Of a stretch of DNA of 64,000 nucleotides, positions 1-7,746 are shown in pieces (positions within the stretch are counted from its first letter, which is position 1; the number at the start of each line of letters is the position of its first letter). This DNA comes from Shinella kummerowiae. Lineage in GTDB: Bacteria; Pseudomonadota; Alphaproteobacteria; Rhizobiales; Rhizobiaceae. A model generated the notes under the pieces. That model was not told the origin of the DNA, did not search any database, and was given only the letters and a program-made list of their open reading frames with translations. Location of the stretch: the NCBI RefSeq assembly GCF_009827055.1, contig NZ_WUMK01000003.1, positions 248,001 to 312,000 of the forward strand. Direction: 5' to 3'. The translations under genes were made by a program, and so were the position numbers.

Positions 1-470
1 CCGTAGAGCAGAGAGGCCGGGTTTTCCGACAAGCGGACATCCATGACGCGTCCGATGATGATGTGATGGGTTTCCCAGAGCACCGAGGTCGCGACCTGGC
101 ACTGGAAACTCGCGGTCGCCCCGTCGAGCGCCGGCTGGCCACGTTCGCCCGCCGACCAGGGCGTGCGCTCGAAGCGCTCCGCATGTTCGCCCGCCGTCAG
201 CCGGCCGGCGAAGAGATCGGACACCGGATGCTGGTCCTCATGCAGGAGATTGGCGCAGAAGGCGCGGTTTCGCAGGATCGCCGCGGCGACCGGGCTCCTA
301 TGGTGGAGGCACGCGAGCAGCGATGGATGGTCGCCATCGGCAGAAACGGAGGTCAGCGAGCTGATCGTCACGCCGAAGCGCCCCGCCTCGCCGTCCGTCG
401 TCACGACGGCAACGAACGTCGCCGCGCGGCTCATGCCTTCGAGGAATTGCAAACGAAGTTCCGGTTTCAT
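1..470 (-). CDS. Flavin reductase domain protein (HpaC-like), C-terminus cut by window edge
   Basis: The first 156 residues of a short-chain flavin reductase are visible; the rest lies beyond base 1. The N-terminal half has the FMN-binding split-barrel pattern: an opening RAATFVAVVTTDG strand, then FGVTISSLTSVS, SLLACLHHRSPVAAAI and FCANLLHEDQ. It later shows HHIIIGRVMDV, as in HpaC and NtaB-type partners that use NAD(P)H to supply reduced flavin to a separate monooxygenase. The ATG at 470 lies four bases after the stop of the glutamine-synthetase-like gene, so it is the last visible gene of the operon that starts at 6173. The acyl-CoA-dehydrogenase-fold protein at 3791-5101 is the obvious partner oxygenase. 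That pairing is inferred from context, not from sequence. Confidence 0.85.
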   Translation of the reverse strand, partial: MKPELRLQFLEGMSRAATFVAVVTTDGEAGRFGVTISSLTSVSADGDHPSLLACLHHRSPVAAAILRNRAFCANLLHEDQHPVSDLFAGRLTAGEHAERFERTPWSAGERGQPALDGATASFQCQVATSVLWETHHIIIGRVMDVRLSENPASLLY

Positions 471-474
471 GGCA

Positions 475-1824
475 CTACCCCAGGTCAAAGAAGCGTTGCA
501 GTTCTACATCGGGTACTTTCTTGCAGAATTCGTCATGCTGGTTCTGGCGGCTGGCGGAAAAGGCCTCGACGAAGCGCTCGCCCAGCCAGTCCCTGGCAAA
601 GGCGGAGGCCCGCAGCCGCTCGATGGCCTCTGGCATGGAGCGGGCGAAATCCGGCCCCTCGCCCGCCTGCACATAGCCGTTGCCGATCACTTCCGGCTCG
701 GGCTCAATGCCCTCCATGATGCCGGCAACGCCGGCCGCGACGGTCGCGGCGACTGTCAGATAGGGATTGGTGTCAGCGCCGGGCAGCCGGTTTTCGACGC
801 GGAGCGACCCCGCATCGTGGCCGACGACGCGGAAGCAGGTCGTGCGGTTCTCGAAACCCCAGGTCAGGCCGGGCGGAGCGAAGGTGCCGGGTGCAAAGCG
901 GCGGTAGGAATTCACCGTCGGCTGGAAGATCAGCGTCATGTCGCCGATGTAGCGTTGCAAGCCGCCGATGAAGTGTCGAAAGGTTTTCGACATGCCGTTC
1001 TTGCCGGCAGGATCGTGGAAGACCTTCTTGCCCTCCCCGTCGGTGAGGCTGACATGGAGGTGGATCGACTGACTGTCGGCAGCCTCCGTCCAGCGTGGCA
1101 TAAAGGTGACGCATTTGCCCTGGCGCTGCGCGAGGGCGCGCACGAAATTTTTCAGGAGAACGAGCTGGTCGGCAGGCTCCAGCCCCGTGCCTGCCGCAAT
1201 GCAGGCTTCGAGGAAGCCGCCGCCGATTTCCTCATGCATCTTGGCGAGGTCGATCTTCAGCGGCGCGCAGATGTCGGCCAGCGCCTCGTACCATTCCGTC
1301 TGCTGGACCTGGTAGAGCAGGAGGTCGTGGCTCTTGTGCAGCGTCGCCGTCTTGAGATTGCGGTAGCCCTTTTCGCGTGCGCTTTCCGGCGTCTCGTCGA
1401 ACAGCGTGTATTCCAGCTCCATGCCGTAACGCGGGGCGAACCCCGCCTCGCCGACGCGGCCCAGCACGCGCTTCAGCAGCGAGCGCGGGCAAAGTTGTGC
1501 CGTGGCACCGCCATAGTTGGACAGCACCAGCAGGTCATGCCCGGGCTTGGACCAGGGCAGGCGGCGCACGGTGGTGGGGTCCAGCACCAGCGGGTCGTCG
1601 TGGAAATCCGACGTGTCGTCGGAGACGCCAGGAATGGTGAGGACGACATCGGTCGGATCGAGCGCGAAGGTGACGGGCGACATGCCCATGCCACTGCGCG
1701 CAATACCGGCCAGCGAGCGGACCGACACCATCTGGCCGCGAAGCAGACCGTTCGTATCGGTCATCGCCACGGTGGCGAAACGGCTTTCCGGGTCGGCAAT
1801 GTAGGCGTCGAGGTTCATGGTCAC
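475..1824 (-). CDS. Glutamine-synthetase-like ligase (gamma-glutamyl-amine type possible)
   Basis: A 449-residue member of the glutamine synthetase superfamily. The metal and ATP elements appear in order: MELEYTLFDE near residue 135, MHEEIGGGFLEA near 197, a SIHLHVSL strand matching the GMHCHQSL metal site, then NSYRRFAPGTFAPP and VENRLPGADTNPYL. Classical GlnA has an adenylylated Tyr loop that I do not see here, and the length fits GlnA-III or gamma-glutamyl-amine ligases such as PuuA and IpuC. The GTG start at 1824 overlaps the tetR stop (GTGA); an ATG lies two codons further in. In a catabolic operon it could gamma-glutamylate an amine substrate or capture released ammonia. The substrate cannot be read from the sequence. 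Confidence 0.88.
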   Translation of the reverse strand: MTMNLDAYIADPESRFATVAMTDTNGLLRGQMVSVRSLAGIARSGMGMSPVTFALDPTDVVLTIPGVSDDTSDFHDDPLVLDPTTVRRLPWSKPGHDLLVLSNYGGATAQLCPRSLLKRVLGRVGEAGFAPRYGMELEYTLFDETPESAREKGYRNLKTATLHKSHDLLLYQVQQTEWYEALADICAPLKIDLAKMHEEIGGGFLEACIAAGTGLEPADQLVLLKNFVRALAQRQGKCVTFMPRWTEAADSQSIHLHVSLTDGEGKKVFHDPAGKNGMSKTFRHFIGGLQRYIGDMTLIFQPTVNSYRRFAPGTFAPPGLTWGFENRTTCFRVVGHDAGSLRVENRLPGADTNPYLTVAATVAAGVAGIMEGIEPEPEVIGNGYVQAGEGPDFARSMPEAIERLRASAFARDWLGERFVEAFSASRQNQHDEFCKKVPDVELQRFFDLG

Positions 1825-2498
1825 TCCGTTTCGGTGGCCGGCGGCGGCTTGAGGGATGAGAGGACGGCGAGGTCTTTTTCGGAAGCGGTGGAATAGGCGC
1901 GCAGGAAGACGCCGAGCCCGTTGCGGATGTAGCGTTCGATGGTCGCCCGGTCGGGCACGGCATCGGGAATGTGCAGCGCCTTGTTGCGCGGTGCCGAGAG
2001 AATAAGACCCCAGAGGTCTTCCGCCGCGAGTTCCGCATCGTCGAAGACGAGCCGGCCGGCCGTACGCTGGCGTTCGAGATAGGTCATCATGCCAGCAAGC
2101 ACCCGGTCAGGCCCCGACGCCTGGTAGGCGCGGCCGACATCCGGCAAGCGCTGGGCTTCGCCGATGATCAGCCGGGCGAGGTTCAGCAAGTCCGGCCGCA
2201 ACACGACATCGGCGTAATGCCAGGAGAAGGCATAGAGTTCGGCCACCATGCCCGAGGCGGAGGGATACTCGAAGGATTCGAGCATGTGGTCCCGTTCCTG
2301 GCTCATCATGGCCGTGAAGAGCTCGTCCTTCGACGGAAAATACTGATAGAGCGTCGGCTTGGTCAGTCCCGCCTCGGCCGCGATGTCGTCCATCGAGGCG
2401 CTGACGAAGCCCTTCTCGGAGAAAACCTTGAGCGCGGCGTCGAGGATGCGGCGCTCGCGAAGGATGCGGTTCTGCTGTCGTTTCGGAAGCGCCGTCAT
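1821..2498 (-). CDS. TetR-family transcriptional regulator
   Basis: A 225-residue regulator. The N-terminal helix-turn-helix is clear: RILDAALKVFSEKGFVSASM, then DDIAAEAGLTKPTLYQYFPSKDELF, about residues 17-65. The ligand domain resembles the AcrR/TetR_C group (FSWHYADVVLRPDLLNLARLI). The ATG at 2498 overlaps the stop of the upstream hydrolase gene (ATGA), and its own stop overlaps the next start, so it is translationally coupled inside the operon it probably controls. The frame is open further upstream, but that extension reads as arginine-rich out-of-frame hydrolase sequence. The likely operator is the perfect palindrome at 6208-6231, giving autoregulation of the whole unit with a pathway compound as inducer. 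The inducer is unknown. Confidence 0.9.
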   Translation of the reverse strand: MTALPKRQQNRILRERRILDAALKVFSEKGFVSASMDDIAAEAGLTKPTLYQYFPSKDELFTAMMSQERDHMLESFEYPSASGMVAELYAFSWHYADVVLRPDLLNLARLIIGEAQRLPDVGRAYQASGPDRVLAGMMTYLERQRTAGRLVFDDAELAAEDLWGLILSAPRNKALHIPDAVPDRATIERYIRNGLGVFLRAYSTASEKDLAVLSSLKPPPATETE

Positions 2499-3787
2499 CG
2501 TGTGACCTCCGACAGGAATTCGCCAAGCACCCTGTTGTAGGCGCCCGGGCGCTCGACATTGCAGACGTGCCCTGCGTCCTCGATGACCTCGAAACGCACG
2601 CAAGCGCGTGGTGTCGCTTCCGCGATGCGGCCCGCAACGCCGCGGATCTCCATCGGGGAAGCAAGGCGGTCGAACCGACCCGTCATCATCAGCGCCGGCA
2701 TGGTGAGCCTAGAGAAATCGAGACGCTCCGGCGGATGGGTGAAGCAATGGAGCGCATCGCGATAGGTCGCGGCGGGAATGGCCGCCATGGAGGTTAACAG
2801 CACCTGCCGCACCGCCTCGCCGGCATGCGGGCCTGCCAAGACATCGACCACCGCAGGCGCAAAATCGGCTGGCGTCTTGCCTGCATCGAGAGGCACTTCG
2901 CGCGCCGTTCGAAACGCCTCGCGTTCCGCAACACCTGCCTCCGACATGCCGGTGCAGCCGCCGGAGAGGACGAGGCCTGCCAGCATGTCCGGATGACGCA
3001 TGGCGAAGGACGCGGCAATCCAGGATCCGTAGGAAAGGCCGCAGAGCACAAGGCGCGTCGAGCCAAGCGCCTCGGCGACACGCAGGATATCGTCGCAATA
3101 ATCCTCCACCGTGCTTTGCGACGAGCCGAGTTGGCTTTCGCCGTAGCCCCGCAGATCCAGTGCTGCGGCACGCAGGGTTGGTGCGACCGCGTGGAGCTGG
3201 GCCAGCCAGTTCGTGCGCGCACCGCCGATGCCATGCAGGAAAAGCACGAGCGGACCAGGCCTCTGCGGCGTGACCGTAGTCGCCAGCCGTAGATCGCCAG
3301 CAATGAAAACAGTCTCGAGTGCGGCGTCTCGTTGCTCGGCAGGGGTAACGTCATTCGGAGCCGATGCCCCGACGATGTCCTCGAGGGCCGCAATACCCAT
3401 TTCGAAGATTGCCTTCGTGCCGGCGGCGATAGCCGGAGCGCGGTCAGCGGAAGCGGAAATCCACGCCGACCACTCGATGCGGCTGCCACCCCTTTCATCG
3501 GCGAAAACCTGCAAACGAGCATCATAGCGCTCCGCGCCCGCAATGCCTTCGAGATGCGTGTAAGCGAGCACCCGATCGCTGTCGGAGCGATAGGTGAGTT
3601 GCTCGCGGTACAGCGTATGCTCACCCTTCGCGGTGAAAGCGCGGATCAGCGCGCCACGCGCATCATGTTCCGTGCGCATTTCCGCAATTGCCGGATGCCA
3701 GGCCCCGCAGAAATCGCCGACCACAGCCCAGACCGCGGCGGGTTCTGCCGCGGCATGTCCGATGACGTAAACCTGTTCCGCAACCAT
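2495..3787 (-). CDS. SRPBCC-domain / alpha-beta hydrolase fusion protein
   Basis: A 430-residue two-domain protein. Residues 1-145 resemble the SRPBCC/polyketide-cyclase helix-grip fold: VIGHAAAEPAAVWAVVGDF near the start, then SDRVLAYTHLEGI and SRIEWSAWISA. Residues 155-430 are an alpha/beta hydrolase with the oxyanion segment FLHGIGGARTNW, nucleophile elbow GLSYGSW (Ser252), acid in TGRFDRLASP and catalytic His in EDAGHVCNVERP. Between a NicX-like dioxygenase and a regulator, the hydrolase half is a candidate counterpart of NicD, which deformylates N-formylmaleamate, though substrate identity is inference. The gene starts three bases after the flavoenzyme stop and overlaps tetR by four bases. 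I know of no characterised enzyme with this fusion. Confidence 0.85.
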   Translation of the reverse strand: MVAEQVYVIGHAAAEPAAVWAVVGDFCGAWHPAIAEMRTEHDARGALIRAFTAKGEHTLYREQLTYRSDSDRVLAYTHLEGIAGAERYDARLQVFADERGGSRIEWSAWISASADRAPAIAAGTKAIFEMGIAALEDIVGASAPNDVTPAEQRDAALETVFIAGDLRLATTVTPQRPGPLVLFLHGIGGARTNWLAQLHAVAPTLRAAALDLRGYGESQLGSSQSTVEDYCDDILRVAEALGSTRLVLCGLSYGSWIAASFAMRHPDMLAGLVLSGGCTGMSEAGVAEREAFRTAREVPLDAGKTPADFAPAVVDVLAGPHAGEAVRQVLLTSMAAIPAATYRDALHCFTHPPERLDFSRLTMPALMMTGRFDRLASPMEIRGVAGRIAEATPRACVRFEVIEDAGHVCNVERPGAYNRVLGEFLSEVTR

Positions 3788-3790
3788 GTC

Positions 3791-5101
3791 TCAGCGAAGC
3801 CCCTTCAGCGTGCCGCCGGTCCCCCGCCACAGCGAGGAGCGCGCACCGCCTTCGTCGCCGGGCGCCTTGTCGAGTTCGTCGAGGTCGTAGAGCGTGAGGA
3901 CGGAGAGGTAGTCCTCCATGATTTCCGACGTATAGGGCAGCATCAGCGCGCCGCAGCGGCTGTCGCGATACATGCGTTCCAGCGGCAGGGTTTTCAGCAT
4001 GGACTGGCCGCCGCAGGTGCGGATGGCGAGGGCTGCGATCTCCTGCACGCCTTCCATCACAGTGTACTGCGCGGCATACATGCGCAGCACCTGCGCCTTC
4101 GTCGGAAAGCCCTGGGCCTCCATGAAGGCCTGCCACCACAGCGCCCGCATGGCGGCAAGCTGGGTGTACATCTTTCCCACGGTGATGCGCTTCGTGCCGA
4201 ACATGCGCCGGTCGGCGGGCGGCTGGCCGGGCACCTCGCCGCGCAGATAGGCGACCGTGAAATCGAAGGCGCCCTGCGCCACGCCCATATAGGTGGGCGA
4301 CAATGTCGCCATCATGTGCGGCCAGTGCGGCAGGGTCTTGATGAAGATGCCGCGCGGCATCATCAGGTCGTCCTCGGTGACGAAGACATCTTTCAGGATG
4401 AGGTCGCGGCTGTTGGTTCCCCTCATGCCGAGCGGATCCCAGCTGCCGGTGACCGAGAGGCCCGGCGCATCCTTGTGCACGACGAAGATCATCGTGTCCT
4501 CATGGCGCGGCTCTATGCCCTCGAAATGCTCGGTGCAGACGATGGAATAGTAGTCGCAGTAGCCGGCGAGCGAGGCGAACTTCTTGAAGCCGTTGATGCG
4601 CCACCCGCCATCGACCTTGCGGCAGGCGGTCTGCGCCGGCTTGGAGGTCCAGTTCTGCCCGGCCTCGGAGATCGGCTGCGAATAGATGCCCTGTTCCTTG
4701 ACGGCACGGCGGAACTGGCGTTCGCGCAGCGGCGCGAAGGCGGCCCGGTCCTCGTCCGTCAGGTTGGGCAGTTCATACATGAACCGCGACCACATCATCG
4801 AAGAGTTGTGCATGTTGAAGGTGAGTGCGGTGGCACCGCAATATTTGCCAATTTCCGCGCCGACCATCGCATATTCGCCAAGGCTGAAGCCGTGGCCGCC
4901 AAACTCCTTGGGAACCGTCAGGGTGAGAAAACCCTCTGCGGCCAGGTCCTTGTAGTTCTCGACCGGGAAGGAGGCTTCGTCGTCGATGCCCTTGGCGCGT
5001 GGTGCAAAGCGCTCGCGGCCGAGTTCGTTGATCCGGGTGAGGACATCGAGCACTTCGGGCCGGATGCGGGAAAGGTCGTAGTAGTCTGCAGGTTCGCTCA
5101 T
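3791..5101 (-). CDS. Acyl-CoA-dehydrogenase-fold flavoprotein, possible flavin-dependent monooxygenase
   Basis: A 436-residue protein with the three-part acyl-CoA dehydrogenase fold. It has an N-terminal helical domain ending GFLTLTVPKEFGGHGFSLGEYA, a beta domain with GSWDPLGMRGTNSRDLILKDVFV and a C-terminal helical domain with IRTCGGQSMLKTLPLERMYRDSR. In true dehydrogenases the following segment is IYEGTSE, with the catalytic Glu; here it is MLPYTSE, so that Glu is replaced by Pro. Loss of this base and a flavin reductase in the same operon fit a class D two-component monooxygenase (the HpaB, DszC and PyrA group) better than a beta-oxidation enzyme. The fold is sure; the monooxygenase role is inference. 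It starts 22 bases after the NicX-like gene. Confidence 0.85.
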   Translation of the reverse strand: MSEPADYYDLSRIRPEVLDVLTRINELGRERFAPRAKGIDDEASFPVENYKDLAAEGFLTLTVPKEFGGHGFSLGEYAMVGAEIGKYCGATALTFNMHNSSMMWSRFMYELPNLTDEDRAAFAPLRERQFRRAVKEQGIYSQPISEAGQNWTSKPAQTACRKVDGGWRINGFKKFASLAGYCDYYSIVCTEHFEGIEPRHEDTMIFVVHKDAPGLSVTGSWDPLGMRGTNSRDLILKDVFVTEDDLMMPRGIFIKTLPHWPHMMATLSPTYMGVAQGAFDFTVAYLRGEVPGQPPADRRMFGTKRITVGKMYTQLAAMRALWWQAFMEAQGFPTKAQVLRMYAAQYTVMEGVQEIAALAIRTCGGQSMLKTLPLERMYRDSRCGALMLPYTSEIMEDYLSVLTLYDLDELDKAPGDEGGARSSLWRGTGGTLKGLR

Positions 5102-5123
5102 GATCAGTCCTTGTCAAATCCGG

Positions 5124-6173
5124 TCAGAGGACGAGGTTGCCCTGGAGACGGCCTTCCTTCACCACGGCGACGCCATCCAGAGTAATCGTGCACTTGCGCA
5201 TCGGCAGGTCGAAATGCCCTTCCGTAAACCGGCCGGCATATTGGTTGGCGCCGGTCGACCAGAGGAAATTGCCGGCCCAGGCGCGGAACTCGACGGCCTG
5301 CATGTCGCGTTTGTCGTAGAGCGCACCGGAGACCCAGCGGGCGGCAGGGTTCATGCCCCAGCCGACATGCGAGAACCCGTAGGCAAGCGGGTCCTCCCAG
5401 GCTTCCATGTACGCCCGGAAGAGTTCGGCATCCAAACCATCGCCCTTGATGTCCTTGACGAAGTCGTTCTCGACGGTGAAGTCGATGCGGCTGGTTAGAT
5501 AGCTCTTGAAGGTCAGGTTCATGTCGCCAACATCCATGACGATGCGGCCGTTGACGGTGCCCGGCCCCGGGAAGGCAAGGCAAAGACCACCCGGCCAGTG
5601 GGCAACCGCGCCTGGCGACGTGCCGAAGCCCGGTGTTCCGCCGCAAGGCGCGTCCCTGAGATCGATGAAAAGATCCGTTCCGGCCGCGGAGGTGACGCGC
5701 ATTTCCTTCGCCTCGCGCAGCATCTGGATGCCGAGCGCCACCTTGGGGCCGAGTTCCGCCTTCGGTTCACAACGCTCGAGGATTTCCGGATGCTCGTTGC
5801 AGATCACGAGGATGCGCGCACCGGCCGCTTCGATCTCCGGCCATTCGGCGGCATGGATCATGCCTTCCACCGTGCAGTCGACGATCACCTCGCACTGCTT
5901 CATCGCTTCGATGGCCGCACGGTTGCCCTGGATCGCGAGCGACGTGCCGGTGGATTTGACCGGCACGGGCGCCGTCTGCCGCGGCGTCGGCATGGTGATC
6001 ATGCAATAGTCGGCGCCGAGATCGTGACAGGCGAGATCCGCAAGCTGGACCAGCACGGGCCGCGACTGAGTCTCGGCAACGATCGCCACCCGCGTCGCCG
6101 GGCCAATTCCGTTGAGCACGAATACGCGTCGGAAGCAGGCAAGCCACTTCCCCTCAATGCGCTCCTGCAGCAT
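5124..6173 (-). CDS. NicX-like 2,5-dihydroxypyridine 5,6-dioxygenase family protein
   Basis: A 349-residue protein, the same length as Pseudomonas NicX, which opens 2,5-dihydroxypyridine to N-formylmaleamate. The C-terminal half matches the family closely: VMDVGDMNLTFKSYL, FSHVGWGMNPAARW, RAWAGNFLWSTGAN and GHFDLPMRKCTITLDG. His269, His320 and Asp322 fall where the NicX Fe(II) ligands (two His, one Asp) lie. The N-terminal 150 residues are more divergent, so the true ring substrate may differ from that of NicX. It is the first gene of the minus-strand operon. The ATG at 6173 follows GGGAGAAG, and the promoter and palindromic operator lie just upstream at 6208-6257. The fold and metal site are well supported; the substrate is not. 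Confidence 0.87.
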   Translation of the reverse strand: MLQERIEGKWLACFRRVFVLNGIGPATRVAIVAETQSRPVLVQLADLACHDLGADYCMITMPTPRQTAPVPVKSTGTSLAIQGNRAAIEAMKQCEVIVDCTVEGMIHAAEWPEIEAAGARILVICNEHPEILERCEPKAELGPKVALGIQMLREAKEMRVTSAAGTDLFIDLRDAPCGGTPGFGTSPGAVAHWPGGLCLAFPGPGTVNGRIVMDVGDMNLTFKSYLTSRIDFTVENDFVKDIKGDGLDAELFRAYMEAWEDPLAYGFSHVGWGMNPAARWVSGALYDKRDMQAVEFRAWAGNFLWSTGANQYAGRFTEGHFDLPMRKCTITLDGVAVVKEGRLQGNLVL

Positions 6174-6207
6174 TGACTTCTCCCAGATCTGAACCGCCCC
6201 TCAGCGA

Positions 6208-6257
6208 TTTCTTTACTTATGAGTAAAGAAACTGTTTGAAGTCTAAAATTTTGTCAA
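6208..6257 (-). promoter_or_regulatory. Promoter with perfect palindromic operator, probable TetR site
   Basis: Bases 6208-6217 (TTTCTTTACT) and 6222-6231 (AGTAAAGAAA) form a perfect 10-bp inverted repeat around TATG. On the minus strand a consensus -35, TTGACA, lies at 6257-6252. The -10 position 17 bases on falls at about 6234-6229 (weak, CAGTTT) and overlaps one arm. The repeat sits 35 bases before the first gene of the operon that contains tetR, so repression by occlusion is the simple reading. Confidence 0.65.
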
Positions 6258-6684: not shown

Positions 6685-7746
6685 ATGACCGCAGTCGCGG
6701 AATTCAAACTTTCCGGTACGGCACTGCCGAAGGACGCGGAATGGATGCTCAACGAGATGTGCGAGCACTTCGTCGAACACGCCGAGGTTCAACGCACCGC
6801 CGGTACAGCGCTGCTGACGAATGAGACCGGCACCGCGCATATGCGCCTGGACGACGGCAAACTTCTGATCGAGCTTGCCTGCCCGACGCAGGACGCGCTC
6901 CAGATCAGCCGCACCGTCATCGCCGAGCACCTCTTCTACTTTGCCGGAGACGAGCCGTTCGAACTCACCTGGTCCGACCCGATGCCGCACACGCGGCTCG
7001 CCAATCTTCATGAGGCGACGGTCTCGTCGACGCACGACGTGACGCCGCATATGCGCCGCGTGATCGTCGCCTGCGCGGATGTCACGCCCTTTGTCAGCAG
7101 CGACATGCATGTGCGGCTGCTCATCCCGCCGAGGGGACGGCGGCCCGTCTGGCCGGGCGTGCGCGACGATGGACGCATCGCCTGGCCGGAAGGCGAAGAT
7201 GCGCTGCTGACCCGCATATACACGATCCGTGCCGTCGATGTGGAACGGCGTGAGCTGTGGATCGACTTCCTGCAACACCCCATGCCCGGCGTCGCAACCC
7301 CGGGCGCTGATTTTGCCCGGGACGCACAACCGGGCGACCGATTGGCCCTGCTCGGACCGGGCGGCGGCAACCTGCCCGAAGCGACCTCCATCTTCCTCGT
7401 CGGCGACGAAAGCGCCCTGCCCGCCATTGCCCGCATCGCCGCCGAAGCGTCAGCGGACACGCATATGCAAGCCATCATCGAAGTGCAGGATGCGGCGGAA
7501 GAGCAGCGACTGCCCACCGCAGGCACGCTCGACGTGCGCTGGTTGCACCGCAAGACCTATCCCGCCAGCGCGAAAAACATGCTGGCGGACACGGCCAAGG
7601 CGGCCCTCGCCGCCGTCGATGGCGAAACCTTCGTCTGGGTGGCCTGCGAGAAAGACGACGTGCGGATCATCCGCGGCTTCCTGAAGAGCCGAAAGCACGA
7701 CCGGAAGCGGATGTATGTGGCCTGGTATTGGGAGCGCGAAGCGTAG
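6685..7746 (+). CDS. Siderophore-interacting protein with N-terminal DUF2218 domain
   Basis: A 353-residue cytoplasmic flavoprotein. Residues 1-100 are a DUF2218-like domain (ALPKDAEWMLNEMCEHFVEH, then FYFAGDEPFELTW). Residues 110-230 form the FAD-binding SIP domain: HMRRVIVACADVTPFV, HVRLLIPPRG, the flavin motif TRIYTIRAVD and LWIDFLQHPMPG. The C-terminal NAD(P)-binding part carries LVGDESALPAIARI and ends in the family hallmark RKRMYVAWYWEREA. Proteins of this type reduce ferric siderophores after uptake. It stands alone on the plus strand, so regulation by iron is expected but not seen. The ATG at 6685 follows GAGAGTGAGG. Confidence 0.93.
   Translation: MTAVAEFKLSGTALPKDAEWMLNEMCEHFVEHAEVQRTAGTALLTNETGTAHMRLDDGKLLIELACPTQDALQISRTVIAEHLFYFAGDEPFELTWSDPMPHTRLANLHEATVSSTHDVTPHMRRVIVACADVTPFVSSDMHVRLLIPPRGRRPVWPGVRDDGRIAWPEGEDALLTRIYTIRAVDVERRELWIDFLQHPMPGVATPGADFARDAQPGDRLALLGPGGGNLPEATSIFLVGDESALPAIARIAAEASADTHMQAIIEVQDAAEEQRLPTAGTLDVRWLHRKTYPASAKNMLADTAKAALAAVDGETFVWVACEKDDVRIIRGFLKSRKHDRKRMYVAWYWEREA

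Follow-up and report, generated by a model that had tools for sequence, protein, structure and literature searches.

A conserved operon encoding a NicX-like ring-opening enzyme in Shinella kummerowiae and its possible role in the catabolism of indole-type compounds

Organization of the operon and its promoter

The window analyzed here, a 64,000-nucleotide stretch of the Shinella kummerowiae genome (contig NZ_WUMK01000003.1, positions 248,001 to 312,000), begins inside an operon of six genes on the minus strand, which is read from position ~6173 down past the window start and opens with a gene for a NicX-like ring-cleavage enzyme. The operon is real and conserved, and it is predicted to be separately regulated. 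All six genes, put forward in a preliminary description made from the sequence alone, were confirmed on this strand, and the set recurs in relatives; this recurrence, at 80 further genome loci and in 4 plasmid records, is not due to chance. The reading that we propose, and for which we see about an even chance, is that the operon serves to break down an indole-type compound, a benzo-fused pyrrole, to anthranilate. The operon and its promoter comprise the following features (GS, glutamine synthetase; ACAD, acyl-CoA dehydrogenase; CoA, coenzyme A).

5124..6173, minus strand: predicted NicX-like Fe(II) ring-cleavage dioxygenase, 349 amino acids (7cn3 NicX, E 7.5e-56)
3791..5101, minus strand: flavoenzyme of the ACAD fold, predicted to be the oxygenase component of a two-component (group D) monooxygenase (Pfam ACAD domains)
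2495..3787, minus strand: SRPBCC domain fused to an alpha/beta hydrolase, predicted (formyl)amide or ester hydrolase (PF10604, PF00561)
1821..2498, minus strand: TetR/AcrR-type regulator, presumably of the operon (PF00440, PF14246)
475..1824, minus strand: predicted GS-like gamma-glutamyl ligase (PF00120)
1..470, minus strand: flavin reductase, truncated at the window start, predicted to work with the ACAD-fold enzyme (PF01613)
6252..6257, minus strand: predicted -35 box TTGACA, identical in 7 aligned loci
6229-6234, minus strand: -10-like CAGTTT, 17 bases after TTGACA
6208..6231, minus strand: predicted operator, the 24-base palindrome TTTCTTTACTCATAAGTAAAGAAA with the core TTWACT-N4-AGTWAA (11/12 paired positions match)

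In transcription order the genes are separated by 22 and 3 bases, two 4-base overlaps and then ~4 bases. The flavin reductase gene ends beyond the window, at G000:C22:247964 (G, C and L numbers are our own handles for genomes, contigs and loci; a full-length example lies at L005:15964-16488), and is followed by a gene for an APC-family permease, assigned by Pfam (G000:C22:246439-247923).

The operator palindrome is degenerate in some of the seven aligned loci. Its exact core is nonetheless found within 250 bases upstream of the NicX-like gene in 44/83 loci, 36 of them 52-61 bases before the gene, as compared with a mean of 0.02 and a maximum of 1 core matches in base shuffles of the upstream regions. 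A count over 21 genomes of the genus gave a single copy of the core in every one of the six operon bearers, always at the operon promoter, and a single copy in just one of the remaining 15; a reversed control pattern is present in 7/21. These counts suggest that the operon owns its operator, most simply for its TetR regulator. A second palindrome, around TTTTCGAAAA, lies near -100 in a number of loci that carry a cupin gene.

Conservation of the operon across relatives

Of 150 relatives in the genome scan, the best 80, with 71-96% identity, were retained, and the 4 plasmid records were added to them. Most carriers are Hyphomicrobiales and Rhodobacterales of the Alphaproteobacteria, with a few gammaproteobacterial and unplaced assemblies. 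Genes in the 85 loci were counted at E <= 1e-20 and at least 30% identity; the flanks are short in some loci, and L005 spans only the far half of the operon, so that the numbers are lower bounds: NicX-like 84, ACAD-fold 82, SRPBCC-hydrolase 81, GS-like 70, flavin reductase 64 and APC permease 47. An earlier cluster count with other thresholds gave slightly different numbers.

A sample of 385 genomes of the class revealed a deeper clade of NicX-like proteins at 45-59% identity. Among 20 fetched contexts from this clade, clusters of open reading frames (ORFs), some of which are lost in the GC-rich DNA, include NicX-like proteins in 19, ACAD-fold proteins in 16, an AMP-forming (CoA-type) ligase in 13 and a stand-alone hydrolase in 11. 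No paper was recognised as describing the operon in a literature search for which subscription journals were mostly outside reach and bioRxiv was not covered.

Active site of the NicX-like enzyme

In a PDB sequence search with the NicX-like protein, NicX (7cn3) was the sole match, the likeness extending over the whole protein (residues 13-341), and a profile search gave the same result; there was no Pfam or NCBIfam match at E 0.001. The iron of NicX is bound by His265, Ser302, His318 and Asp320, Glu177 forms hydrogen bonds with the pyridine N1 and the 2-OH group, His189 also bonds the 2-OH, and the Glu177Ala mutant is reported to have 2.7% of its activity left (PMC7910607). The iron ligands predicted for the window protein (H269, S306, H320 and D322) coincide with those mapped from NicX, in line with the conserved metal ligands claimed in the preliminary description, and the equivalents of Arg293, His105 and His189 are also kept. 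Apart from a single replacement of Asp320 by Val, the ligands are present in all 84 close relatives, and they are kept in 28/28 deeper ones; His189 is found in 84/84 and 25/28, respectively, with Tyr in the other 3.

The substrate pocket differs. Glu177 and Glu308 of NicX correspond to Thr180 and Tyr312 in the window protein, and Thr and Tyr occupy these positions in 84/84 close relatives. In the deep clade, position 177 is Gly, Val or Ile in 28/28 proteins, and position 308 is without Glu in 28/28. The iron chemistry is thus predicted to be retained and some of the contacts to the pyridine nitrogen and the 2-OH group to be lost, a combination that would fit a ring benzo-fused on that side.

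An N-heterocyclic substrate, as originally supposed, is likely. A pyridine, pyrimidine or pyrrole carboxylate, the candidates named at that time, is not favored by these data, and we consider it distinctly unlikely that such a compound is converted by hydroxylation to a dihydroxypyridine, which the NicX-like enzyme opens at C5-C6, with deformylation and deamidation then leading to a maleate-type acid. This scheme would account for NicX being the only solved relative found, for the retained iron ligands, for the maleate-isomerase-like gene that immediately precedes the NicX-like gene in L031 and L039 (2/85 loci), and for a CN-hydrolase in 22/85 loci. However, the Glu177 position is changed in all close and deeper relatives, L031 and L039 included, whereas both Glu177 and Glu308 are kept in three of five distant NicX homologues, one near a gene annotated as Asp/Glu racemase (L011) and two (L121, L122) near a gene 61-63% identical to the maleate-isomerase-like gene of L031, the Pfam family of which is arylmalonate decarboxylase. 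In addition, the hydrolase beside the L011 homologue is hardly like the fused hydrolase of the operon (27 bits), and the genomic links described below point to tryptophan and anthranilate. The earlier conclusion that this is not a nicotinate operon holds, as no nicC, nicD, nicE or nicF partners were found beside the window copy (NicD being judged by the L011 hydrolase). The accompanying list of missing enzymes is right for the window copy and fails in some relatives, which have the amidase-type CN-hydrolase and the maleate-isomerase-like gene at the frequencies given above.

Partner enzymes

The ACAD-fold protein carries the motif LMLPYTSE, with Pro389 conserved in 82/82 sequences, in a stretch that we take to be the position of the catalytic Glu in acyl-CoA dehydrogenases; its nearest solved relatives are 5gj7 and 5z8t. 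In L133 a class A FAD aromatic hydroxylase identified by Pfam (L133:11454-13115) occupies the position of the ACAD-fold gene, as does its cluster-mate in L138 (L138:11378-13021), and in both loci it is accompanied by a small YCII-type protein (Pfam on L138). This replacement, in L133 directly and in L138 by cluster, argues that the ACAD-fold protein is a hydroxylase. Enzymes of this fold that act on indoles have been described: XiaF hydroxylates indole at C3 to indoxyl (PMC5481743), and IacA is an indole oxygenase that oxidises indole-3-acetate (PMC7225977).

Two relatives carry fused forms of the reductase. In Aminobacter (L008:20701-21879) the plain flavin reductase is replaced by one fused to a LysR-type substrate-binding domain with no recognised DNA-binding part, and in the deep clade a flavin reductase fused to a MarR domain lies beside the NicX operon (L132:4937-5929). 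Such fusions suggest a reductase controlled by an aromatic substrate.

The predicted catalytic triad of the fused hydrolase (Ser252, Asp373, His407) is conserved in 79/79 sequences, and a triad is likewise present in 17/17 stand-alone hydrolases of the deep clade, one of which (L124) is 34% identical to the fused enzyme. In the GS-like ligase, alignments to solved glutamine synthetases and conservation in 71 loci indicate that the GS-type catalytic positions are kept, presumably with the roles that they have in glutamine synthetase. The flap Glu of the aligned canonical sequences is replaced by Phe (Phe315 in the window ligase) in 70/71 loci, as would be expected for a bulkier amine acceptor. 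In aniline catabolism a GS-like ligase, AtdA1, glutamylates aniline (PMC4539516).

Genomic links to tryptophan and anthranilate genes

In four Shinella genomes (G385, G396, G397 and G398) a PRK08255-type gene lies on the same contig as the NicX-like gene, 22-27 kb away from start to start, and in the two of these four stretches that were examined, genes for a tryptophan dioxygenase, a kynureninase-type enzyme and a CoA ligase are located in between. After the operon on the G396 contig, which matches locus L013, come a hydrolase gene on the opposite strand, a gene of the benzoate-CoA ligase family (374.1 bits, cutoff 375.25), a tryptophan 2,3-dioxygenase (433.9 bits, cutoff 390.7), an ABC transporter and a kynureninase-type gene (356.7 against a cutoff of 246.4 for the model scored on the G397 copy). 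The PRK08255-type gene itself, 22.7 kb from the NicX-like gene, encodes a fusion of a flavin monooxygenase with an Old Yellow Enzyme (OYE) domain (1354.5, cutoff 1078), with beta-oxidation-like genes alongside. NCBI labels PRK08255 as 'salicylyl-CoA 5-hydroxylase/oxidoreductase'; we take its fused architecture to be that of 2-aminobenzoyl-CoA monooxygenase/reductase, which is supported by its position beside the kynurenine genes.

The association extends beyond physical linkage. Among the 21 genomes of the genus, the six with a NicX-like gene are all among the eight that carry both the PRK08255-type gene and tryptophan dioxygenase; the former is present in 6/6 operon-bearing genomes vs 2/15 others (P 5e-4, a Fisher value that, like the one below, ignores phylogeny). 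In the wider set, it is found in 49/50 operon-bearing genomes (all but L091, with two partial matches, L072 about half and L049 at a contig end) vs 80/385 genomes of the class (9 of the 80 matches spanning the OYE half only). The 50 genomes were chosen from the 80 largely by dropping short or metagenome contigs, which left 30 out, and L013-L015 belong both to the 49 and to the six genomes of the genus test. As a control we scored PcaH, and in the window clade the PRK08255 link exceeds this control (Fisher 1.8e-7). In genomes with only distant NicX homologues PRK08255 and PcaH are found in 9/24 and 12/24, respectively, and in genomes without NicX in 51/335 and 42/335. Two deep-clade loci, L136 and L137, hold PRK08255-type genes near the operon, and a third, L141, has a gene of the tryptophan dioxygenase family by Pfam (330 bits) that is below the NCBIfam cutoff (172.7 vs 390.7).

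The same links to kynurenine and anthranilate would also be compatible with a quinoline or 4-quinolone substrate (kynurenate-derived, kynuramine-derived or an alkylquinolone) that would be converted to anthranilate by C3 hydroxylation, cleavage and hydrolysis. The aqd genes follow this logic for quinolones, the SRPBCC domain could hold a larger, greasier substrate, and the Glu177 and Glu308 positions are changed. Yet a 3-hydroxy-4-quinolone split between C2 and C3 would yield an isatinate-type acid rather than anthranilate, so that one more step is needed, and the quinolone-cleaving enzymes known to us are cofactor-free dioxygenases of the hydrolase fold, not of the NicX type. We therefore regard this substrate class as unlikely.

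Gentisate- and homoprotocatechuate-type neighbors

Upstream of the operon, a gentisate-dioxygenase-type cupin is found in 32/85 loci, typically with FAH, together with a second flavin reductase in 32 and the CN-hydrolase in 22; the Aminobacter copy of the cupin scores 562 bits to 3bu7. In L008 the cupin, FAH, CN-hydrolase and second flavin reductase lie directly upstream of the NicX-like gene (L008:11263-14883). Homoprotocatechuate-type matches occur in 8/85 loci, and in some loci the cupin block is in a same-strand run with such genes. A single run in L090 (L090:368-14313) joins genes for a glutamine amidotransferase (GATase), P450, GS2 (a second GS-like ligase), HpaF-like, HpaE, HpaD, pyridoxal phosphate (PLP) decarboxylase, HpaG-like and HpaH-like proteins on one strand, with the NicX-like, ACAD-fold and hydrolase genes at its end; HpaD and HpaE are above their cutoffs, HpaH (342 vs 351.5) and HpaF below. 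GATase, GS2 and P450 genes are found together beside the operon in 7/85 loci.

These neighbors raise the possibility that the operon degrades phenolic biogenic amines of the tyramine or dopamine type, in which case the NicX-like protein would be a ring-cleaving enzyme of an unusual kind that takes part in a homoprotocatechuate or gentisate route. The L090 run, the cupin and its score to 3bu7, and an APC permease and GS-like ligase that suit an amine are all in keeping with this scheme. We nevertheless rate it as very unlikely: in L090 the Hpa genes would appear to suffice for a route without a heterocycle and would leave the NicX-type enzyme without a job, cupin and Hpa-type matches coincide in just 2/85 loci (in one of these the match is no more than an aldehyde dehydrogenase at 40%), and neither is within reach in 47/85 loci, where flanks vary. 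The cupin and Hpa neighbors may instead reflect an extra hydroxyl on the substrate (5-hydroxyindole type) or unrelated aromatic pathways side by side.

A general downstream route through gentisate or homoprotocatechuate was considered and rejected, as the cupin-bearing operon genomes also have the PRK08255-type gene; a search of the window's own genome, run without a positive control, gave no match to the gentisate-dioxygenase cupin and was also counted against this route. Catabolism of homarine or trigonelline was considered on chemical grounds, and the literature search gave no useful support for it.

Proposed pathway

From the gene set and its conservation, the iron ligands, the pocket change, the palindrome and the genomic association, all of which are present in the sequences, we infer the substrate, repression by TetR and every reaction of the following scheme. 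The APC permease would import the substrate, and the flavin reductase would feed reduced flavin to the ACAD-fold oxygenase, which would oxygenate the hetero-ring to an N-CH=C(OH) intermediate of the indoxyl (3-hydroxyindole) type. The NicX-like Fe(II) enzyme would then split C2-C3, as NicX splits C5-C6 of 2,5-dihydroxypyridine, yielding an N-formylanthranilate-type product (an N-formyl amide and a carboxylate), from which the alpha/beta hydrolase domain would take off formate to leave anthranilate. Anthranilate would enter the pathway of CoA ligase and 2-aminobenzoyl-CoA monooxygenase/reductase encoded elsewhere in the genome. An (aryl)amine is the probable substrate for gamma-glutamylation by the GS-like enzyme, by analogy with AtdA1 and aniline, and TetR would repress the operon at the palindrome over the promoter. 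Copying the nicotinate logic onto indole in this way is the simplest chemistry that joins the facts on the oxygenase, the NicX-type enzyme and the hydrolase, and the order of steps originally suggested (two-component oxygenase, NicX-type ring opening, hydrolysis) fits the gene set.

The intermediates have precedents. Indoxyl is formed from indole-3-carboxylate by decarboxylation with another flavin enzyme (PMC6692525), and N-formylanthranilate has been reported in indole breakdown (PMC6221969), including its detection by mass spectrometry in Providencia, where it is explained through isatin (PMC9871250).

Several observations weigh against the proposed indole-to-anthranilate catabolism. In the window's genome, the PRK08255-type gene (C2:95430-97748) and tryptophan dioxygenase (C2:109132) are on a contig other than that of the operon. 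Tryptophan- or anthranilate-type genes are within reach in only 10/85 loci in all (CoA ligase in 9, PRK08255-type in 2 at a threshold of at least 45%, tryptophan dioxygenase in 3). The possibility that the tryptophan cluster shares the operator was rejected, as the genome has no second exact core. The PcaH control is itself enriched (over its cutoff in 28/50 operon genomes vs 72/385 genomes of the class), which indicates that part of the co-occurrence reflects general catabolic versatility, the anthranilate-type link being stronger; in the deep clade PRK08255 (20/26) does no better than PcaH (18/26). XiaF is not among the best 60 of the 74 PDB relatives of the ACAD-fold profile, and IacA is described as inactive on tryptamine and indole-3-carboxylate (PMC7225977). 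Finally, the GS-like enzyme and an amino-acid-type permease would be superfluous for indole itself, and the cupin and homoprotocatechuate-type neighbors are not fully explained by indole.

A more specific version of the scheme would accommodate some of these points, and we put it forward as tentative and rather improbable in its entirety. In it, the NicX-fold enzyme opens 3-hydroxyindole directly to N-formylanthranilate without isatin, the GS-like ligase adds glutamate to the arylamine so formed or to an amine side chain, and in the 32 cupin loci the substrate is a 5-hydroxyindole of the serotonin type, with 5-hydroxyanthranilate cleaved by the cupin to an amide. Such a cleavage would explain the CN-hydrolase and the maleate-isomerase-like gene. 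Both 5-hydroxyanthranilate and gentisate have been described as intermediates derived from anthranilate (PMC4539516), and according to a 2018 review no gene was known for the branch of indole breakdown that runs through gentisate (PMC6221969).

If the indole scheme is correct, a ring-opening family known for pyridines would extend to benzo-fused rings, and soil, plant-associated and aquatic bacteria would possess genes for converting indole-type compounds to anthranilate without passing through isatin. The scheme would also replace the 'peptidase M29' annotation carried by such NicX-like genes. If the 5-hydroxyindole version holds as well, it would provide genes for an anthranilate-to-gentisate route that has been described without them, for which the cupin block beside the operon is a testable candidate.

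Comparison with known systems

The ACAD-fold enzyme and its flavin reductase place the operon next to group D two-component flavin monooxygenases such as XiaF and IacA, which act on indoles; no close sequence match was found, and IacA is likened by description. As in the indole (iif) and indole-3-acetate (iac) clusters, a flavin oxygenase and a reductase would open the attack on the indole ring, and the indole route is described as reaching anthranilate. Unlike these clusters, the operon core has neither an IacE-type short-chain dehydrogenase/reductase (SDR) nor an IacCD-type Rieske protein, and ring opening is assigned to a NicX-type enzyme. Among typed ORF clusters present in at least 5 of the 85 loci, SDR occurs in 6 loci and no Rieske protein is found. 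To our knowledge, neither the iif nor the iac cluster contains a ring-opening enzyme of the NicX type. A Rhodococcus skatole cluster is reported to use other enzymes (PMC13101512).

The atdA1/atdA2 system of aniline catabolism (PMC4539516) shares a GS-like ligase presumed to act on an amine, AtdA1 being likened by description; it differs in that the window operon is without GATase or an arylamine dioxygenase, GATase, together with GS2 and P450, being seen in the seven relatives mentioned above. The 2-aminobenzoyl-CoA pathway of Azoarcus evansii (PMC4539516) is related through the fused monooxygenase, CoA ligase and kynurenine genes that are linked to the operon or found in the same genomes. 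That pathway acts downstream of anthranilate, and the operon, which has a predicted operator to itself, stands apart from it.

Flanking genes and plasmid copies

Past the APC permease come a TIM-barrel gene on the opposite strand and genes for an ABC transporter that includes an SBP_bac_8-type binding protein and that we guess to be of the polyamine type. Upstream, a divergent gene for a siderophore-interacting protein with a DUF2218 domain at its front (6685-7746) adjoins the operon promoter. On a metagenome-assembled cyanobacterial plasmid, an ACAD-fold gene 46% identical to that of the window (L012:11956-13203) has no NicX or GS gene annotated within 12 kb. The plasmid copy of the operon in Ensifer adhaerens (L007:12337-28273) is flanked by IS3 and IS30 transposase genes.

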